Assembly (NCBI GenBank): GCA_003134815.1
Contig: PLCO01000029.1
Span: 1-64,000, forward strand
Origin: Acidobacteriaceae bacterium
GTDB lineage: Bacteria > Acidobacteriota > Terriglobia > Terriglobales > Acidobacteriaceae
Direction of reading: 5' to 3'
DNA length: 64,000 bases
A program made the position numbers and the translations under genes. A model generated the notes under the pieces. That model was not told where the DNA came from and did not search any database. It saw nothing but the letters and a program-made list of their open reading frames with translations. Shown here one piece after another: positions 11,723-64,000 of the stretch. Positions within the stretch are counted from its first letter, which is position 1. Each line of letters starts with the position of its first letter.

Positions 11723-13215
11723 ACCTGCGCCGCGACCACCAGGAAGACGAGCCTCACACCGCATTCTCCGAGCCGAAGGCGGCTGCCCCACCGCAGGTGG
11801 TTCGCGTGATTGGCGGTGGGCTGGCCGGGCCCGAAGCGGCACTGACGGCGGCGCGGCTGGGCTGCCAGGTGGATCTCTATGAGATGCGAGCGATGGTGGA
11901 GGGAAAGCCGCGCCTGACGCCCGCGCACCAGACGACGGAGTTTGGCGAACTCGTGTGCTCAAATTCGCTGAAGAGTGAGTCGCCCAACACTGCGCCGTGG
12001 CTGCTGAAGCAGGAGATGCGGCGCGGGGGCTCGGCGCTGCTGCGGATTGCGGATGAAAGCGCCGTTCCGGCGGGGCACGCGCTGGCCGTGGACCGCGTGG
12101 AGTTTTCGCGACGCATTGCGGAGGCGATCGCGGCGGAGCCGAGGATTCGCGTGATTCGCGAAGAGGTGACGAGCCTCGAATGCGGCGATGCGCAGACGGC
12201 TGCGACGATTATCGCGACCGGGCCGTTGACTTCGGATGCGCTGAGCCGTGAGATTGAGCGGCTGACAGGCGCTGGGCATTTGGCGTTCTACGATTCCATC
12301 TCACCCATTGTCGATGCCGATTCGATTGAGATGAGCCGTGTGTATTTTGCCGCGCGGTGGGACAAGGGAACGGCGGATTACATCAACTGCCCGATGGACC
12401 GCGCCGAGTACGACCGGTTTCTGGATGGGCTAATTGCCGCGGAGGCGGCAGAAGAAAAGGACTGGGAAAAGCTCGACTATTTTGAAAGCTGCCTGCCGAT
12501 CGAAGTGCTGGCGAAGCGGGGGCGCGATACGCTGCGCTTTGGTCCGATGAAGCCGGTGGGACTGCGCGATCCGCGGACGGGAAAGACACCGTGGGCCGTG
12601 GTGCAACTGCGCAAGGAGAATCTGCGCGCCGACAGCTACAACCTTGTGGGGTTCCAAAACCATTTGAAGTTTGGCGAGCAGGCAAAGGTTCTGCGACTGA
12701 TTCCGGGGCTTGAGAATGCTCGCTTTCTGCGCTATGGGCAGATCCACCGGAACACCTATATTTGCGCGCCGGCGCTGATGGATGAATGCCTGAGGCTGAA
12801 AAGTTCACCGGGCTTGATGTTTGCCGGGCAGATTTGCGGAGTGGAGGGGTATACCGAGTCGATTGCGTCGGGTATGCTGGCGGGGATTTACGCGGCGGCG
12901 CTGGCGCGCGGTGAGGAAGCAAAGCCCGTGCCGCGCGCGACGGCCCTCGGTTCGCTGGTCCACTACATTACGCACGCCGACGCGAAGAACTTTCAACCGG
13001 CCAACATTACCTTCGACCTGCTCGAGCCTTTGGATCTCGACCCGCTGGACCAGGAGACGAGGAAGCGGGTTCGGGACAAGAAGGAGCGGCACCGAATTGT
13101 CTGCGAGCGGGCGCTCGAGGCGTTTGAGGGTTGGCGGGCGACGATTGGGCACCCGGCGGCGGAACTTCGCCCCCCGGCCCTGCGTATTTCTCAAGCAGGG
13201 CAGGTCTCCCCCTGA
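11719..13215 (+). CDS. trmFO: Folate/FAD-dependent tRNA m5U54 methyltransferase TrmFO
   Basis: Uses methylenetetrahydrofolate and FADH2 to methylate uridine 54 in the T-loop of tRNA. The start ATG overlaps the stop of the preceding acetyltransferase gene (ATGA); upstream codons in this frame lie inside that gene and are not family-like. The 498-residue protein has the FAD-binding GGGLAGPEAALTAAR (about 33-47) and the TrmFO/GidA-like blocks TTEFGELVCSNSLKS and HALAVDRVEFSR. The cysteine in YINCPMDRAEYDRF is the likely catalytic nucleophile, and FESCLPIEVLAKRG and GQICGVEGYTESIASG follow. Residues 1-25 form a non-conserved leader. The length is close to the usual 440-480 residues with a short C-terminal tail. 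Confidence 0.95.
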   Translation: MNLRRDHQEDEPHTAFSEPKAAAPPQVVRVIGGGLAGPEAALTAARLGCQVDLYEMRAMVEGKPRLTPAHQTTEFGELVCSNSLKSESPNTAPWLLKQEMRRGGSALLRIADESAVPAGHALAVDRVEFSRRIAEAIAAEPRIRVIREEVTSLECGDAQTAATIIATGPLTSDALSREIERLTGAGHLAFYDSISPIVDADSIEMSRVYFAARWDKGTADYINCPMDRAEYDRFLDGLIAAEAAEEKDWEKLDYFESCLPIEVLAKRGRDTLRFGPMKPVGLRDPRTGKTPWAVVQLRKENLRADSYNLVGFQNHLKFGEQAKVLRLIPGLENARFLRYGQIHRNTYICAPALMDECLRLKSSPGLMFAGQICGVEGYTESIASGMLAGIYAAALARGEEAKPVPRATALGSLVHYITHADAKNFQPANITFDLLEPLDLDPLDQETRKRVRDKKERHRIVCERALEAFEGWRATIGHPAAELRPPALRISQAGQVSP

Positions 13216-59612: not shown

Positions 59613-60173
59613 TCAACGCCTCATCGAGGGAGGGCGATAATCATAAAATGTCGGAATGTATTCGGTGACCACCATGACCACCCTCTTCCCTGACCAGACT
59701 CGATATTTCCGAACCAGCAATAAGGAAGCACCGTCACCGTCGAAGTATTTCGAAAGCTCCCCTGACGCTCGATAATCGACCTCTACCATTTCCTTAAATG
59801 TCTCCAGCTTGTGCTCAAGCCACAGTCGTCCCAGCGGGACCTGAGAGTTCAGGAGTTCATCAGACATTGCTGGACCCAGCCGGTCAACCGCTATGAGCGA
59901 CTCGGCGTAGACGTAGTTCCTTCCGGACTCAGAGCCGCGCAGGAGAATCTGTCGCTCCATTATGGATTCTTCATCTTTCGGCTCCAAGCTAGAATGTTCT
60001 CTCTTCGCATTTACCACTTGCTGCGCAACCTTGATCAGCTGGATGCGCTCAAGGAATGAAGCCTCCAGAATTTCTGTCAGCGTTCCATCCGTAACCAAGA
60101 GCACCCGCTGAGTGGGACCAAGGCCACTGGCACTGATCTTAGCGACATTATTGAGGACATCGATAGCTGACAT
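59613..60173 (-). CDS. Chorismate pyruvate-lyase-like protein (DUF98 family)
   Basis: Likely makes 4-hydroxybenzoate and pyruvate from chorismate. The 186-residue protein matches the DUF98/UbiC-like family: LLVTDGTLTEILEASF (about 25-40), IMERQILLRG with Arg79, YAESLIAVDRLG and the hallmark PLGRLWLEHKLETF (113-126). VRKYRV and VTEYIPTFYDYR with Glu171 follow; the Arg and Glu lie where UbiC uses such residues. A good AGGAGA site lies before the ATG. It is the last gene of the minus-strand cluster with the acyl-AMP ligase, carrier protein, SGNH and MBOAT genes. In mycobacteria a DUF98 enzyme supplies 4-hydroxybenzoate to FadD22, which loads it on a carrier. The same role is inferred here. Confidence 0.82.
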   Translation of the reverse strand: MSAIDVLNNVAKISASGLGPTQRVLLVTDGTLTEILEASFLERIQLIKVAQQVVNAKREHSSLEPKDEESIMERQILLRGSESGRNYVYAESLIAVDRLGPAMSDELLNSQVPLGRLWLEHKLETFKEMVEVDYRASGELSKYFDGDGASLLLVRKYRVWSGKRVVMVVTEYIPTFYDYRPPSMRR

Positions 60174-60279
60174 ATTTCTCCTGGTTGAAATGCAATCATA
60201 AGTTCCGCTATGGGCTTTTTTGCGCCAGCGAAGTTAGACGGCAACCCCCAATCTTGCGTAAGCCGGGAAACTTCAATAC

Positions 60280-61749
60280 CTAACCGACCAGATGCTTGCG
60301 CAGGACTTTTCCTATTCCATTGCGAGGGAGTTCACTAACGAATTCCACTCTTCGGGGAATCTTAAAGTCCGACATCCGTTCCCGACAGTAATCAATGATT
60401 TCCTGCTCGCGACATGCCTCGCGTGAAACGACGACAGCCTTCAACACGGTTTCGCCCTGATAGCCCGGGATCCCAACAACTGCCACCTCTTGCACCTTAG
60501 CAAATTTGCTGATCACGTCCTCGACCTCGAAGAGGTCGACCTTCTTCCCTGACGCCAAAATCAACCAGTCCGTACGTCCCTCAAGATAAAGAAAACCGCG
60601 ATCGTTTTTTCTCCCAAAATCGCCTGGGCAGAACAGTCCCTGCCGAAACCGTCGCTCGGTCAGTTCGGGCTGACCCTGATAACCAAGCGTCATGGCGGCG
60701 CTCTGAATCGCGATTTCGCCTCTTTCCCCCGGCACAACCGGCTCCCCACTCTCCAGAAGAACGTCGATTCGAACGTTTCGCAGTGGCAGACCCACGGATT
60801 CCAGCGTCTCCTGTGGATCAATATCCGTGTTGATTGCTACGGCGCCAACCTCCGTTGCTCCGTAAAGCTGACGGACGTAGACACCAAAGCCATCCTTGAA
60901 CTCCCTGGCCACCTTTGCAGGAAGGGGGGCGCCAGCGGAGAAAGCTAAGCGCAGCGACGTCCCGCGTCGGTGACGGTTCGGCCCTTGCTGAGCAAGCAGC
61001 TCGAACATCACCGGCACAGCAGGAAAGACCGTAATCCCCTCGTGTTCTACGATCTCCGCCACTGCGGCACGGTTGAATTCTTCCATCAACACGAGGGTCG
61101 CCCCAGCATACATTGCAGCCAAGAGTGCATTGCCAAAGCCGTGTGAGTGAAAAAGTGGAACGGTGCACAGGATAGAGTCATCGGCCGAGATTCCAGTCGT
61201 TTCATTGAAGTTCGCGGCCTCACAATAGAGATTCCGGTGGGACCGGACGATGCATTTGGGAATTCCAGTGGTGCCCGATGTGTACTGCACGATTGCAGCT
61301 TCGCTGTCGTAAATCAGCTCCGCTGGCGGTTCGCCCAAGTGATCGACTGAACTCTCAAAGCCTGCGTCTCGGACCAGAATCACAAAGCGTTGATTGGTTT
61401 CTTCTCTGACCTGTTCCAAAGAAAGTCGCTGGCTCGGTTCACAAATCGCTATTGCGATGTCGTTCTCGGAGAAGATCCTCATCAACTCACCAGGCTTTGA
61501 GCCGGGATCCAGTAAGTATGCGGGCGCACCGAGACGTGATGCCGCCAAGTAAGAGAAAATGAACAGCGGGCAGTTCTTCAGGACCAGCGCTACACCCATG
61601 TCACCCGTAACCCCTAGCCGCTTCAAGGCCGCTGCCCAGTGAGCCACTTGGTCTTCCAATTGCCCGTACGTGTAGCGGTCATCCCCAAACACAAGCGCCG
61701 TCCGAGGGCCAGCCGACCGAAAAGTCTCCTCAAAAACGCGATTCAACAC
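60280..61749 (-). CDS. Acyl-AMP ligase (ANL superfamily) for carrier-protein loading
   Basis: A 489-residue adenylate-forming enzyme. Start is GTG, with AGGA upstream. The ANL core motifs are in order: YTSGTTGIPK (156-165, phosphate loop), LYGATEVGA (295-303), PGDFGRKNDRGFLYLEGRTD (about 385-405) with the hinge, and the C-terminal catalytic Lys481 in NGIGKVLRKHL. It is single-domain, with no fused carrier, so it would charge the separate carrier encoded 225 bp upstream. It resembles benzoate/4-hydroxybenzoate-type and PltF-like ligases more than long-chain acyl-CoA synthetases. With a chorismate-lyase-like partner the acid is probably 4-hydroxybenzoate. Its specificity pocket cannot be judged by eye. 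Confidence 0.82.
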   Translation of the reverse strand: MLNRVFEETFRSAGPRTALVFGDDRYTYGQLEDQVAHWAAALKRLGVTGDMGVALVLKNCPLFIFSYLAASRLGAPAYLLDPGSKPGELMRIFSENDIAIAICEPSQRLSLEQVREETNQRFVILVRDAGFESSVDHLGEPPAELIYDSEAAIVQYTSGTTGIPKCIVRSHRNLYCEAANFNETTGISADDSILCTVPLFHSHGFGNALLAAMYAGATLVLMEEFNRAAVAEIVEHEGITVFPAVPVMFELLAQQGPNRHRRGTSLRLAFSAGAPLPAKVAREFKDGFGVYVRQLYGATEVGAVAINTDIDPQETLESVGLPLRNVRIDVLLESGEPVVPGERGEIAIQSAAMTLGYQGQPELTERRFRQGLFCPGDFGRKNDRGFLYLEGRTDWLILASGKKVDLFEVEDVISKFAKVQEVAVVGIPGYQGETVLKAVVVSREACREQEIIDYCRERMSDFKIPRRVEFVSELPRNGIGKVLRKHLVG

Positions 61750-61974
61750 GTCTGGATATCCTGGAAATCTGGATCGTATTCCCTACAGCGAGAAGACTCT
61801 TTGTTCCGATTTTCGATGACTCCTCATTACACGCAGTCTCTACGTGCTCTGAAGCAGACTCTCACGGGATTCGCTAATGGCTTATAGCCAGCCGTCCCCG
61901 TCCACGATTCTTTCTCTCGCTTGCGTACTTGTTCCCGATGTAAGACACGAAAATGGGGTATCCGTAGGCACAAC

Positions 61975-62241
61975 TCAGTTTTCACCCGCGATCTTTCTCT
62001 CAATCAAATCTGCGATGGCGTCGATTGTATCAAAGTTTTCTATGCTGGTATCGTAAGCTTTGAGTTCAATTCCGTACTGGCTCTCCACAAAACCGACAAG
62101 CCGCAGCAGCCCCATTGAATCCATTACGCCGCTGGTTCGCAAAGGCGTGTCGTCCTTTAAGCTCTCCGGCGACTCGTCCGGCAGGAATGCCGAGGCGATA
62201 TAAGTCCGAAGTTCTTCTTTCATTGCGCTCTTGTCTTTCAT
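61975..62241 (-). CDS. Acyl carrier protein
   Basis: An 88-residue acidic four-helix protein with the phosphopantetheine site at Ser42 in GVMDSMGLLRL; the Met after Ser is where most carriers have Leu. The ATG has an AGGAGG ribosome-binding site about 9 bases upstream. Its size and the surrounding ligase, SGNH and MBOAT genes point to a dedicated DltC-like carrier rather than the fatty-acid AcpP. The DSMG site also resembles carriers that accept aryl or amino-acyl groups. It lies between the SGNH gene (with an acyl-CoA dehydrogenase relic) and the ligase gene. Confidence 0.85.
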   Translation of the reverse strand: MKDKSAMKEELRTYIASAFLPDESPESLKDDTPLRTSGVMDSMGLLRLVGFVESQYGIELKAYDTSIENFDTIDAIADLIERKIAGEN

Positions 62242-62289
62242 TTTTGTGGCCTCCTCTAGCCTAACGCGAAAGGTCTTTTGTCCCTGCTC

Positions 62290-62403
62290 CTACAGGCCTG
62301 GGAGCCTGGCGAAGATGTTCCGTTGTATCTCCGACGTCTCGGAATAGAGAGTGCTTTCTAGCGCATCGCGAGCGTCTAACTCCACGCCCGTTCTTTCATA
62401 CAC
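62290..62403 (-). pseudogene. C-terminal relic of an acyl-CoA dehydrogenase gene
   Basis: A 37-codon frame ending in TAG encodes LESTLYSETSEIQRNIF followed by ARLPGL, the signature end of acyl-CoA dehydrogenases (Y-S-G/E-T-S-E-I-Q-R-N-I). The FAD domain and middle barrel are missing: the frame begins only 18 bases after the stop of the SGNH gene. A GTG could start a 37-residue peptide, but no function is likely. It shows that a dehydrogenase gene once stood between the SGNH and carrier-protein genes, on the same strand as the cluster. Confidence 0.75.
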
Positions 62404-62421
62404 CTGCGACCGCCGGAGATT

Positions 62422-63549
62422 TCAAGGGTGCTGGTTAATACCGAGAGCAGGTCCAACCAGTTTCGACCACGCTTCCGGATTCGCGCGCAGTTTCTCGTAG
62501 AGACTTTTGTATATCATCTCGTCGCCCTTTGCGTTGGGGTGGACATCGACCCCGTTAAGGCGGATGGATTTTCTGTCCAACATTCCTGTAAATGTGTCGG
62601 ACAGGTCGACGAAGGTAATATTCATCGTAGATAAAAGTTCTGGAATTCCGGCAAACCTCCGCCTGGATAAGTCAGCGTCTTCGACCGCCGGGACCAAGAC
62701 AACCAGAAACTGGGTGTGATGCTGCTCAGCATTGGCTTTTATCTTTAGTATTGTCTGCCGAATGATCGACATTCTGTAAGGCGCGAACTTCGCACTCAGC
62801 TTAGAATTGTCGTCGGACTGCTTCGCGTTTGCCTCGCTTGCGGTCTCTCGCAAAAAGTCGTATTTGACATCGGCTCCGGACTGCACCAGATAAATCAAAT
62901 GCGTGTCCCACGGCCGATAAACAGAGAGCTCCGTCAGCATCAAAACATATACATCGGGTTGAAATTGCGGTACATCATGCAGCGCAACGTCCATCGTTTG
63001 TGTCAGCTCATATCCTGGAACCGCAAAATTGAGGAATTCGAATTGTTGCCGATGCGGTGAGTGATCCGTATTGAGTCGATCCGCTAGCAAGCTGACAAAA
63101 TTCTGATCCGAGTCTACGCCCAGGCCCAGAGTAATCGAATCACCCAGAACCGCGACTCGGCGCGTGTCGGGAGGTTTGATGAGCGTCCACTCGGGACCTT
63201 CATATCCAAATCGATTGGTTGGCGAGTTCGTTGCAGGCCTGGTTGTCACACTGGCTAAGTTAGGCCTCATTCGCAGAACGCGAAAGGCGTCCGGTGCAAA
63301 CGTGGCGCTCCAGTGCTCACGCCAGTTATCGGGGTCTGGCCAGAACAACTGGTCAAAATATCCATCTGGCGTCCAGCCGAAGAGAGGGGGCCGACTCGAC
63401 ATGACGTCAATCATCATCGCTGGAAATCGCCCTAATGCCATCGTGTACATGGGTGTCGCGAGGCTCTTGAGCGCTACAAGGGCGATAATCGTGATCGTAG
63501 GAATCAGTATCGCACGCCGGGAAGATACGCCCCTTTGCAAAGTGATCAT
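62422..63549 (-). CDS. SGNH-fold membrane-anchored acyltransferase/esterase-like protein (AlgJ/DltD type)
   Basis: The start is the ATG of MITLQRGVSSRRAILIP, which overlaps the stop of the MBOAT gene as ATGA. An extension of 46 codons upstream lies inside that gene. The 375-residue protein has one N-terminal transmembrane helix (about 13-34) and an outward-facing SGNH domain. The nucleophile is Ser138 in VLGDSITLGLGVD, with a Gly-containing block in LNFAVPGYELTQT. The Asp/His pair is Asp335 and His337 in GVDVHPNAKGDE. Such proteins partner MBOATs in alginate acetylation (AlgJ/AlgX), PatA/PatB and Dlt systems, either moving the acyl group to its polymer or removing it. Substrate unknown. Confidence 0.82.
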   Translation of the reverse strand: MITLQRGVSSRRAILIPTITIIALVALKSLATPMYTMALGRFPAMMIDVMSSRPPLFGWTPDGYFDQLFWPDPDNWREHWSATFAPDAFRVLRMRPNLASVTTRPATNSPTNRFGYEGPEWTLIKPPDTRRVAVLGDSITLGLGVDSDQNFVSLLADRLNTDHSPHRQQFEFLNFAVPGYELTQTMDVALHDVPQFQPDVYVLMLTELSVYRPWDTHLIYLVQSGADVKYDFLRETASEANAKQSDDNSKLSAKFAPYRMSIIRQTILKIKANAEQHHTQFLVVLVPAVEDADLSRRRFAGIPELLSTMNITFVDLSDTFTGMLDRKSIRLNGVDVHPNAKGDEMIYKSLYEKLRANPEAWSKLVGPALGINQHP

Positions 63550-64000
63550 TGTGCGGCCCCATGGGTCCATCGTGTCATCAGGTAGAGCCAGGAAGAGAAG
63601 CTTGGTGACAGATTCAGGGACCACAAAATGACGATTGTGGCAAAGGTGCCGGCTGTTCGAAGCGCAAGAAGACCGCGACCCCGCCAACCGAAAGCAGTCC
63701 GGGGCGCCTTATGCCGCGATTCGTACACTACGTTCGCGATCACCAGTAGGCCGATACAACTCCAAAATATGGTACTTGTCCACGAGAAATTCCCGCTAAT
63801 CCAAATCCCATATGAATGCAGCGCCCATGAGACCGTAAATACAGCCGCGCTGCCAAATATCTGAGCGCGGAGATCTCCCTGTTTTCTGAACTTGAAGTAC
63901 ACCGGAAAGTAGACAACTTTCAGCATGAAGTCTTTCCAGTAAATGTTAATCCTGCGCCAGTAGTCCAAGAAGCCGCTCGCAAGAAAGTAGCGCCGGTTGG
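63546..64000 (-). CDS. MBOAT-family O-acyltransferase, C-terminal part (cut by the window)
   Basis: The frame stays open to the window's right edge, so the N-terminal two-thirds of this membrane O-acyltransferase lie outside. The visible 150 residues start with NRRYFLASGFLDYWRRINIY and contain the MBOAT signature YWKDFM, FPVYFKFRK and WALHSYGIW with the catalytic-type His. Hydrophobic helices then follow to the stop (MTRWTHGAAQ). MBOATs pass acyl groups across the membrane from a carrier or CoA to an extracellular acceptor. Its stop overlaps the start of the SGNH gene by ATGA, indicating translational coupling and a joint role. Confidence 0.85.
   Translation of the reverse strand, partial: NRRYFLASGFLDYWRRINIYWKDFMLKVVYFPVYFKFRKQGDLRAQIFGSAAVFTVSWALHSYGIWISGNFSWTSTIFWSCIGLLVIANVVYESRHKAPRTAFGWRGRGLLALRTAGTFATIVILWSLNLSPSFSSWLYLMTRWTHGAAQ

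Follow-up and report, generated by a model that had tools for sequence, protein, structure and literature searches.

A Dlt-like gene cluster with its own chorismate-lyase gene in an Acidobacteriaceae genome: a candidate system for aromatic acylation of the cell envelope

What acyl group would be exported by a Dlt-like gene cluster that carries a chorismate-lyase gene? The question is raised by contig PLCO01000029.1 (88,873 bases) of an Acidobacteriaceae bacterium (assembly GCA_003134815.1), of which positions 1-64000 were analysed as one stretch, here called the window. A first-pass annotation had described five genes at its far end as an acyl-AMP ligase, a stand-alone carrier, an MBOAT, an SGNH protein and a DUF98 protein, and had proposed that together they acylate a surface polymer with a phenolic acid. 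The reading favoured here, with slightly more confidence than doubt, is carrier-dependent MBOAT-SGNH acylation of the envelope with an aromatic acid derived from chorismate, 4-hydroxybenzoate being the most likely. DUF98 would convert chorismate to 4-hydroxybenzoate and pyruvate; the ligase would adenylate the 4-hydroxybenzoate and load it onto the phosphopantetheine of the carrier; the MBOAT would move the aroyl group across the membrane; and the membrane-anchored SGNH protein would esterify it onto an exported glycan or glycolipid. We infer this substrate, the carrier loading, the transfer chemistry and the acceptor from the gene content and order, the protein families, the ligase class, the differences in supply genes among relatives and the predicted MBOAT fold of one relative, each of which was established directly.

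All five genes lie on the minus strand, where they had first been placed, in the transcription order MBOAT, SGNH protein, carrier, ligase, DUF98 (Table 1). Pfam confirms the families of four of them and the predicted fold of a relative that of the MBOAT. The ATGA overlap of the SGNH and MBOAT genes was also confirmed (SGNH ATG at 63549, MBOAT stop ending at 63546); the remaining intergenic gaps are 180 bases (SGNH-carrier), 225 bases (carrier-ligase) and 106 bases (ligase-DUF98). PADLOC gave no match for four of the window proteins.

The last gene had been called chorismate-lyase-like, and this held. The DUF98 protein scores 58.6 bits with PF01947 (cut-off 22) and also passes PF04345 Chor_lyase (25.5 bits, cut-off 23.6). 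Up to E 1 the PDB offers a single match for it, the DUF98 structure 2nwi (E 3e-12), and the cyanobacterial chorismate lyase model NF037993 gives 36.4 bits, under its cut-off of 175. An Arg and an E-x-x-P motif are common to this protein and five other lyase-like proteins. The lyase-site Arg and Glu columns, which presumably have the roles of their counterparts in UbiC, do not vary among the window protein, three further DUF98 proteins and the lyase-like proteins of loci L020 and L072 (L numbers denote loci and G numbers genomes). Judged by sequence, the protein is an Rv2949c-like chorismate lyase, and release of 4-hydroxybenzoate is predicted.

The ligase had been given the DltA role. It is an acyl-AMP ligase (PF00501, 265.7 bits, plus PF13193) but not of the DltA type: the Asp that binds the amino group is absent, with Ser at that column, and none of the 53 PDB matches of its substrate segment is a D-alanine ligase. 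The segment is nearest to feruloyl-CoA synthetase, benzoate-CoA ligase and 4-coumarate-CoA ligase, the first of which is also the top PDB match of the ligase. Among the 56 aligned amino-acid-type ligases of related loci, 54 keep the Asp and two (L020 and L028) have Ala, while the ligases of the window and of L017 carry a different, aryl-type motif in its place. By these motifs the window ligase is aryl-type and not amino-acid-type. The ligase tree was built by a quick method. At L017 (genome G265), a carrier, a Pfam-recognisable MBOAT of another kind and a window-like aryl-type ligase stand in a row; no lyase-like open reading frame (ORF) was seen there.

The window carrier passes PF00550 (24.3 bits, cut-off 20.8) and belongs to the same family as the carriers of related clusters (90-94 bits). 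The DltC models leave it well short (NF003464, 20.3 bits against a cut-off of 68; TIGR01688, 15.4 against 52.35). Its top NCBIfam name refers to ornithine lipids (79.6 bits, cut-off 130); this label was dropped because OlsH, according to the accessible part of PMC12493201, needs no acyl carrier. The SGNH protein scores 41.1 bits with PF13472 (cut-off 32.9), and its Ser138, Asp335 and His337 do not vary in an alignment of 37 sequences. With matches admitted to E 0.1, Pfam gives only GDSL families for it and not the DltD family, and the PDB sequences offer no useful match (best E 0.085).

The Pfam MBOAT model fails to detect both the window MBOAT and its relative at L018, which is 58% identical to it in the best segment. 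The structure predicted for the L018 protein (predicted local distance difference test, pLDDT, 92.8) is nearest to DltB in Foldseek, and superposes on DltB 8jem with Z 25.9 and a root-mean-square deviation of 4.0 over 358 aligned residues (VIA-align). PORCN, MBOAT7, LPCAT3 and HHAT follow at Z 21-23; with PORCN and HHAT among them the fold belongs to the superfamily. All but one of the 88 alignment rows have the MBOAT His, and WRRINIYWKD is nearly invariant. A strict acyl-shuttle motif is another matter. In PatA and DltX the acyl group is carried on the Tyr of a C-terminal FXYXXF motif, as described in the accessible part of PMC12148441; Tyr stands at the aligned column in only 5/88 rows, and no small hydrophobic ORF ending in FXYXXF was found at the window locus (L002). 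Four of the five Tyr rows are the window (C-terminus WLYLMT), L014, L018 and L020, all ending in W-x-Y-L-M-T; their close relatives have Asp there. These four also group together in the MBOAT tree (Shimodaira-Hasegawa-like approximate likelihood ratio test 99, quick method), and a role of the C-terminal Tyr in that small clade is possible. L014 (genome G075) and L018 are of the proline type described below.

Small DUF5989-like membrane proteins at some related loci (Table 1) end in FIYTLF or FIYTMF. Since these ends match the FXYXXF that DltX and PatA use, DUF5989 may act as a shuttle in the manner of DltX. PF19451 was found in three of ten genomes searched, and not in that of the window. Two nearly identical copies flank the G075 cluster, which suggests a local duplication or rearrangement.

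Comparison with its relatives puts the window set in a different light. An MBOAT scan of one genome per species (84,980 species) gave 192 relatives, and 84 loci besides the window were annotated (the best 80 of the 192 and four others), with genes assigned by single-sequence phmmer; many loci are cut by contig ends. An SGNH protein, often fused to the MBOAT, is present in 79 of them, an ANL ligase in 62, a carrier in 50 and an acyl-CoA-dehydrogenase-like gene in 41. The named loci nearest the window MBOAT are mostly from Acidobacteriota; the family extends to Planctomycetota, Pseudomonadota, Gemmatimonadota, Rhodothermota and others. All 13 dehydrogenases scanned score highest against PigA and then RedW, the prolyl-carrier dehydrogenase models, and that of G075 has the prolyl-ACP dehydrogenase 4irn as its best PDB match (432 bits; next 327). 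The substrate segment of the G075 ligase comes closest to PltF, the ligase that loads L-proline onto its carrier, with HFDLS, WYS, LFAGE and GPTETNVCT in common; for the whole ligase, multi-domain peptide synthetases outscore PltF. A proline ligase, a carrier and a prolyl-carrier dehydrogenase are the established parts for making a pyrrole-2-carboxyl thioester. With a PltF-like ligase and a PigA/RedW-like dehydrogenase present, the commonest form of the cluster thus appears, from its gene content, to offer the MBOAT a carrier-bound pyrrole acyl group and not D-alanine or acetate.

The window lacks this module. No dehydrogenase gene is found at L002. Across the family, 37 of the 54 Asp ligases have a dehydrogenase no more than 9 kb away, as against none of the four non-Asp ligases (Fisher, p 0.014, with the window included and relatedness ignored; one unrelated ligase ORF, at L060, 4951, was excluded before counting). 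On the favoured reading, the window set would differ only in its supply module from a wider family, apparently undescribed, whose MBOAT-SGNH-carrier core most often occurs with genes for making pyrrole-2-carboxyl from proline; the theme would seem to be aromatic acyl groups with exchangeable supply modules.

Some loci lack or add genes. Eight planctomycete loci (L041, L042, L044, L047, L049, L058, L068 and L076) encode an MBOAT, a pair of SGNH proteins and a ligase that keeps the Asp; neither a carrier nor a dehydrogenase was found nearby, and their acyl group may differ. In Methylomonas sp. SURF-2 (L073) the alpha and beta subunits of a ring-hydroxylating dioxygenase and a B12-binding radical SAM protein are encoded between the carrier and the prolyl-type ligase of an MBOAT-SGNH cluster. 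At L025 a halogenase-family flavoenzyme (PF04820) and a radical SAM protein are encoded directly upstream of the MBOAT; the ligase there keeps the Asp, and no dehydrogenase is nearby. These extra enzymes are possibly what tailoring of an aromatic group would need.

Does DUF98 belong to the machine? Absence of the gene from related clusters in which the other four persist had been named beforehand as the outcome that would speak against the first proposal and, taken literally, it is what was found: single-sequence searches detected DUF98 in 0/84 other loci. PF01947 occurs in 2/55 genomes searched (that of the window, and a second where it lies on another contig; the 55 include the genomes of 50 of the 80 best loci) and in 3/396 genomes of the phylum, and the protein in 1/200 of the family, namely its own genome. 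DUF98 as a fixed part of the cluster was therefore rejected. The ligase type, too, differs in the clusters that lack DUF98, and this points to an exchanged supply module, not a stray gene.

Locus L020 is the best evidence that a chorismate-derived acid has replaced proline more than once. Its gene row is a prolyl-type ligase with Asp changed to Ala, an MBOAT, an SGNH protein and, beginning 23 bases past the SGNH stop, a gene for a lyase-like protein of 188 residues. No Pfam model matches that protein, which aligns with DUF98 at an hhalign probability of 79% and shares its Arg and E-x-x-P; among the structures compared with its model, DUF98 2nwi ranks first and UbiC seventh, and GntR-type sensor domains take places in between. 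Homologues lie near pabB and an aminotransferase gene in Azospirillum and, in G612, beside a ligase of the PaaK-like type that accompanies DUF98 in G254, G206 and G611. The L028 ligase also has Ala for Asp, and neither PF01947 nor an L020-type lyase was found in its genome. L072 was rejected as a second case of the L020 type; its lyase-like gene is ~3.5 kb from the MBOAT and belongs to a family present in 30/396 genomes of the phylum.

In four genomes (G254, G206, G611 and G612; loci L102, L103, L104 and L123) a PaaK-like ligase, an assignment backed by Pfam in two of the four, comes after DUF98 or an L020-type lyase, and this pair is possibly a separate hydroxybenzoate pathway. In G611 a carrier, a ligase, DUF98 and the PaaK-like ligase are grouped, and other contigs of that genome carry three MBOAT-SGNH genes. 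Two DUF98 neighbourhoods on plasmids, for which the gene tables are incomplete, show neither an MBOAT nor a stand-alone carrier among their annotated genes.

For the wider family, a tentative proposal, given a little less than an even chance, is that aromatic acyl groups pass from a dedicated carrier to a surface glycan by way of a DltB-fold MBOAT that lacks a strict tyrosine-shuttle motif. The usual cargo would be pyrrole-2-carboxyl from proline, replaced by chorismate-derived hydroxybenzoyl at least twice: by ligase exchange in the window and by loss of the amino-binding Asp in L020. The aromatic surface acylation that was first suggested is partly supported, and appears right in kind: the DltB fold, the aryl-type ligase, the prolyl and pyrrole relatives and the L020 lyase-like gene agree with it, whereas the expected company of DUF98 and the strict shuttle motif are missing from the family.

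Besides these two absences, several results weigh against the favoured reading. The 13 dehydrogenases score under the PigA and RedW cut-offs, and 17 of the 54 Asp ligases, mostly of the planctomycete clade, have no dehydrogenase within 9 kb of available sequence. The L020 lyase model is weak (pLDDT 69.5, with three of five models near 35), GntR-type sensor domains have the same fold, and the carrier gene is not on the short L020 contig. Three further points concern the ligase. Among whole-length NCBIfam models a fatty-acyl-CoA ligase comes first (331.7 bits, cut-off 476); the benzoate-CoA ligase model scores lower (202.8 bits); and a long-chain fatty-acid ligase is close behind the aryl ligases for the substrate segment. 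With feruloyl-CoA synthetase as the best PDB match, these suggest that the same export machine might be loaded with another acid (ferulate-like, 3-hydroxybenzoate, anthranilate or a fatty acid), DUF98 serving something else or supplying only a precursor. We think this unlikely: a gene that is rare in the phylum lies directly behind the ligase, and in L020 an altered ligase is paired with a different lyase-like gene.

An acceptor other than a glycan, namely a lipid, a small exported metabolite or a protein, is improbable to the same degree, the aromatic acid itself being granted. Lipid and protein acyltransferases share the MBOAT fold, but SGNH partners are usual in glycan acylation, according to the accessible part of PMC12148441. 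In Mesorhizobium muleiense (L083) the cluster, which is of the proline type, lies in an exopolysaccharide cluster with a flippase, three GT4-type glycosyltransferases, a pyruvyltransferase and an initiating sugar transferase, and those of L016 and G611 lie among genes that look by eye like sulfotransferase and glycan types. At the window the picture is poorer, another point to be set against the favoured reading: glycan export genes had been suggested as something to look for beyond base 64000, and the neighbours around the window resemble GT-C-type membrane proteins by eye and one of three matches PMT_2, barely over the cut-off, but none is a certain acceptor gene, and the membrane protein adjoining the MBOAT upstream has no Pfam match. 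A glycan or glycolipid is the likely acceptor.

Less probable still is that DUF98, and perhaps the ligase, come from a quinone or secondary-metabolite pathway and are chance neighbours of the MBOAT-SGNH-carrier set. DUF98 does occur without an MBOAT, beside a PaaK-like ligase, in G254 and G206. At the window, however, the genes share a single strand and a single GC dip, and the aryl-type ligase occupies exactly the place of the relatives' prolyl ligase. At ~59.5 kb, where the cluster ends with DUF98, GC content drops from 0.58-0.61 to 0.51-0.55, and it does not rise again before ~68.5 kb; a second low at ~71.5-75.5 kb means that the dip is not unique to the cluster. MBOAT relatives (E 1e-5) occur in 10/396 genomes of the phylum, that of the window included. 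The dip and the rarity of both MBOAT relatives and DUF98 fit an acquired cluster. A true Dlt system transferring D-alanine, with which the gene roles and the MBOAT fold would agree, is highly improbable and was rejected on three tests: the ligase is not DltA-like and has no amino-group Asp, the carrier is far under the DltC cut-offs, and the FXYXXF shuttle motif is absent.

Table 1. Coordinates of the window cluster (window positions) and of features at related loci (prefixed with the locus)
Feature	Location	Strand	Remarks
DUF98 / Rv2949c-like chorismate lyase (predicted)	59613..60173	-	186 aa; PF01947
ANL acyl-AMP ligase, aryl type (by motif)	60280..61749	-	489 aa; PF00501 + PF13193
Stand-alone acyl carrier protein, DSM motif	61975..62241	-	88 aa; PF00550
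SGNH/GDSL protein, N-terminal hydrophobic segment	62422..63549	-	375 aa from ATG at 63549; PF13472
MBOAT, C-terminal 150 codons in window	63546..64000	-	gene to contig position 64877, 443 aa
DUF5989-like ORFs	L014:387-587 and 12411-12611 (-), L032:19230-19421, L044:9344-9742, L053:5336-5503, L076:18836-19093		
Carrier, other MBOAT, aryl-type ligase (G265)	L017:6303-9413	-	
Dioxygenase alpha + beta, B12-binding radical SAM	L073:12772-16360		
Halogenase-family flavoenzyme, radical SAM	L025:5719-8888		PF04820

In the papers found, the group transferred by MBOAT-SGNH systems is either acetyl or D-alanyl. A version with aromatic groups, if true, would provide ultraviolet-absorbing, redox-active or hydrophobic surface decorations, would mean that the cell surface has taken over pyrrole-forming chemistry of the antibiotic type, and would pose the problem of how an acyl group gets through the membrane when the usual tyrosine motif is missing. 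Proline-fed and chorismate-fed versions stand side by side in close relatives, which makes the specificity of the ligase and the MBOAT directly testable. Paper searches, with partial coverage of the open literature, listed nothing that describes an MBOAT-SGNH system acylating with aromatic or pyrrole groups.

Four known systems bear comparison with the window cluster. Mycobacterial phenolic glycolipids are made with the Rv2949c DUF98 lyase and the ANL ligase FadD22, which load 4-hydroxybenzoate on a carrier. The window likewise combines a DUF98 lyase with an ANL ligase, but in mycobacteria the acyl group starts a polyketide, whereas the window has no polyketide synthase and has the MBOAT-SGNH pair instead. 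Pyrrole-2-carboxyl modules (PltF/PltL/PltE, PigI/PigG/PigA, RedM/RedO/RedW) share a PltF-like ligase, a carrier and a PigA/RedW-like dehydrogenase with the related clusters. In antibiotic and pigment pathways these modules feed synthases; in the related clusters they adjoin an MBOAT-SGNH pair, and the window has neither prolyl ligase nor dehydrogenase. The O-acetylation systems PatAB, AlgIJX and WssHI resemble the window in an MBOAT and SGNH pair that acylates exported polymers. They use acetyl-CoA and the C-terminal FXYXXF Tyr, according to the accessible part of PMC12148441, whereas the window encodes a carrier and a ligase, and FXYXXF is not conserved. The Dlt system (DltA, DltC, DltB, DltD, DltX) is matched in its ligase, stand-alone carrier, DltB-fold MBOAT and SGNH protein. 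Unlike Dlt, the window has an aryl-type ligase, a lyase gene of its own, a carrier that falls short of the DltC models and a host with a different type of envelope, and neither DltX nor an FXYXXF motif was found.

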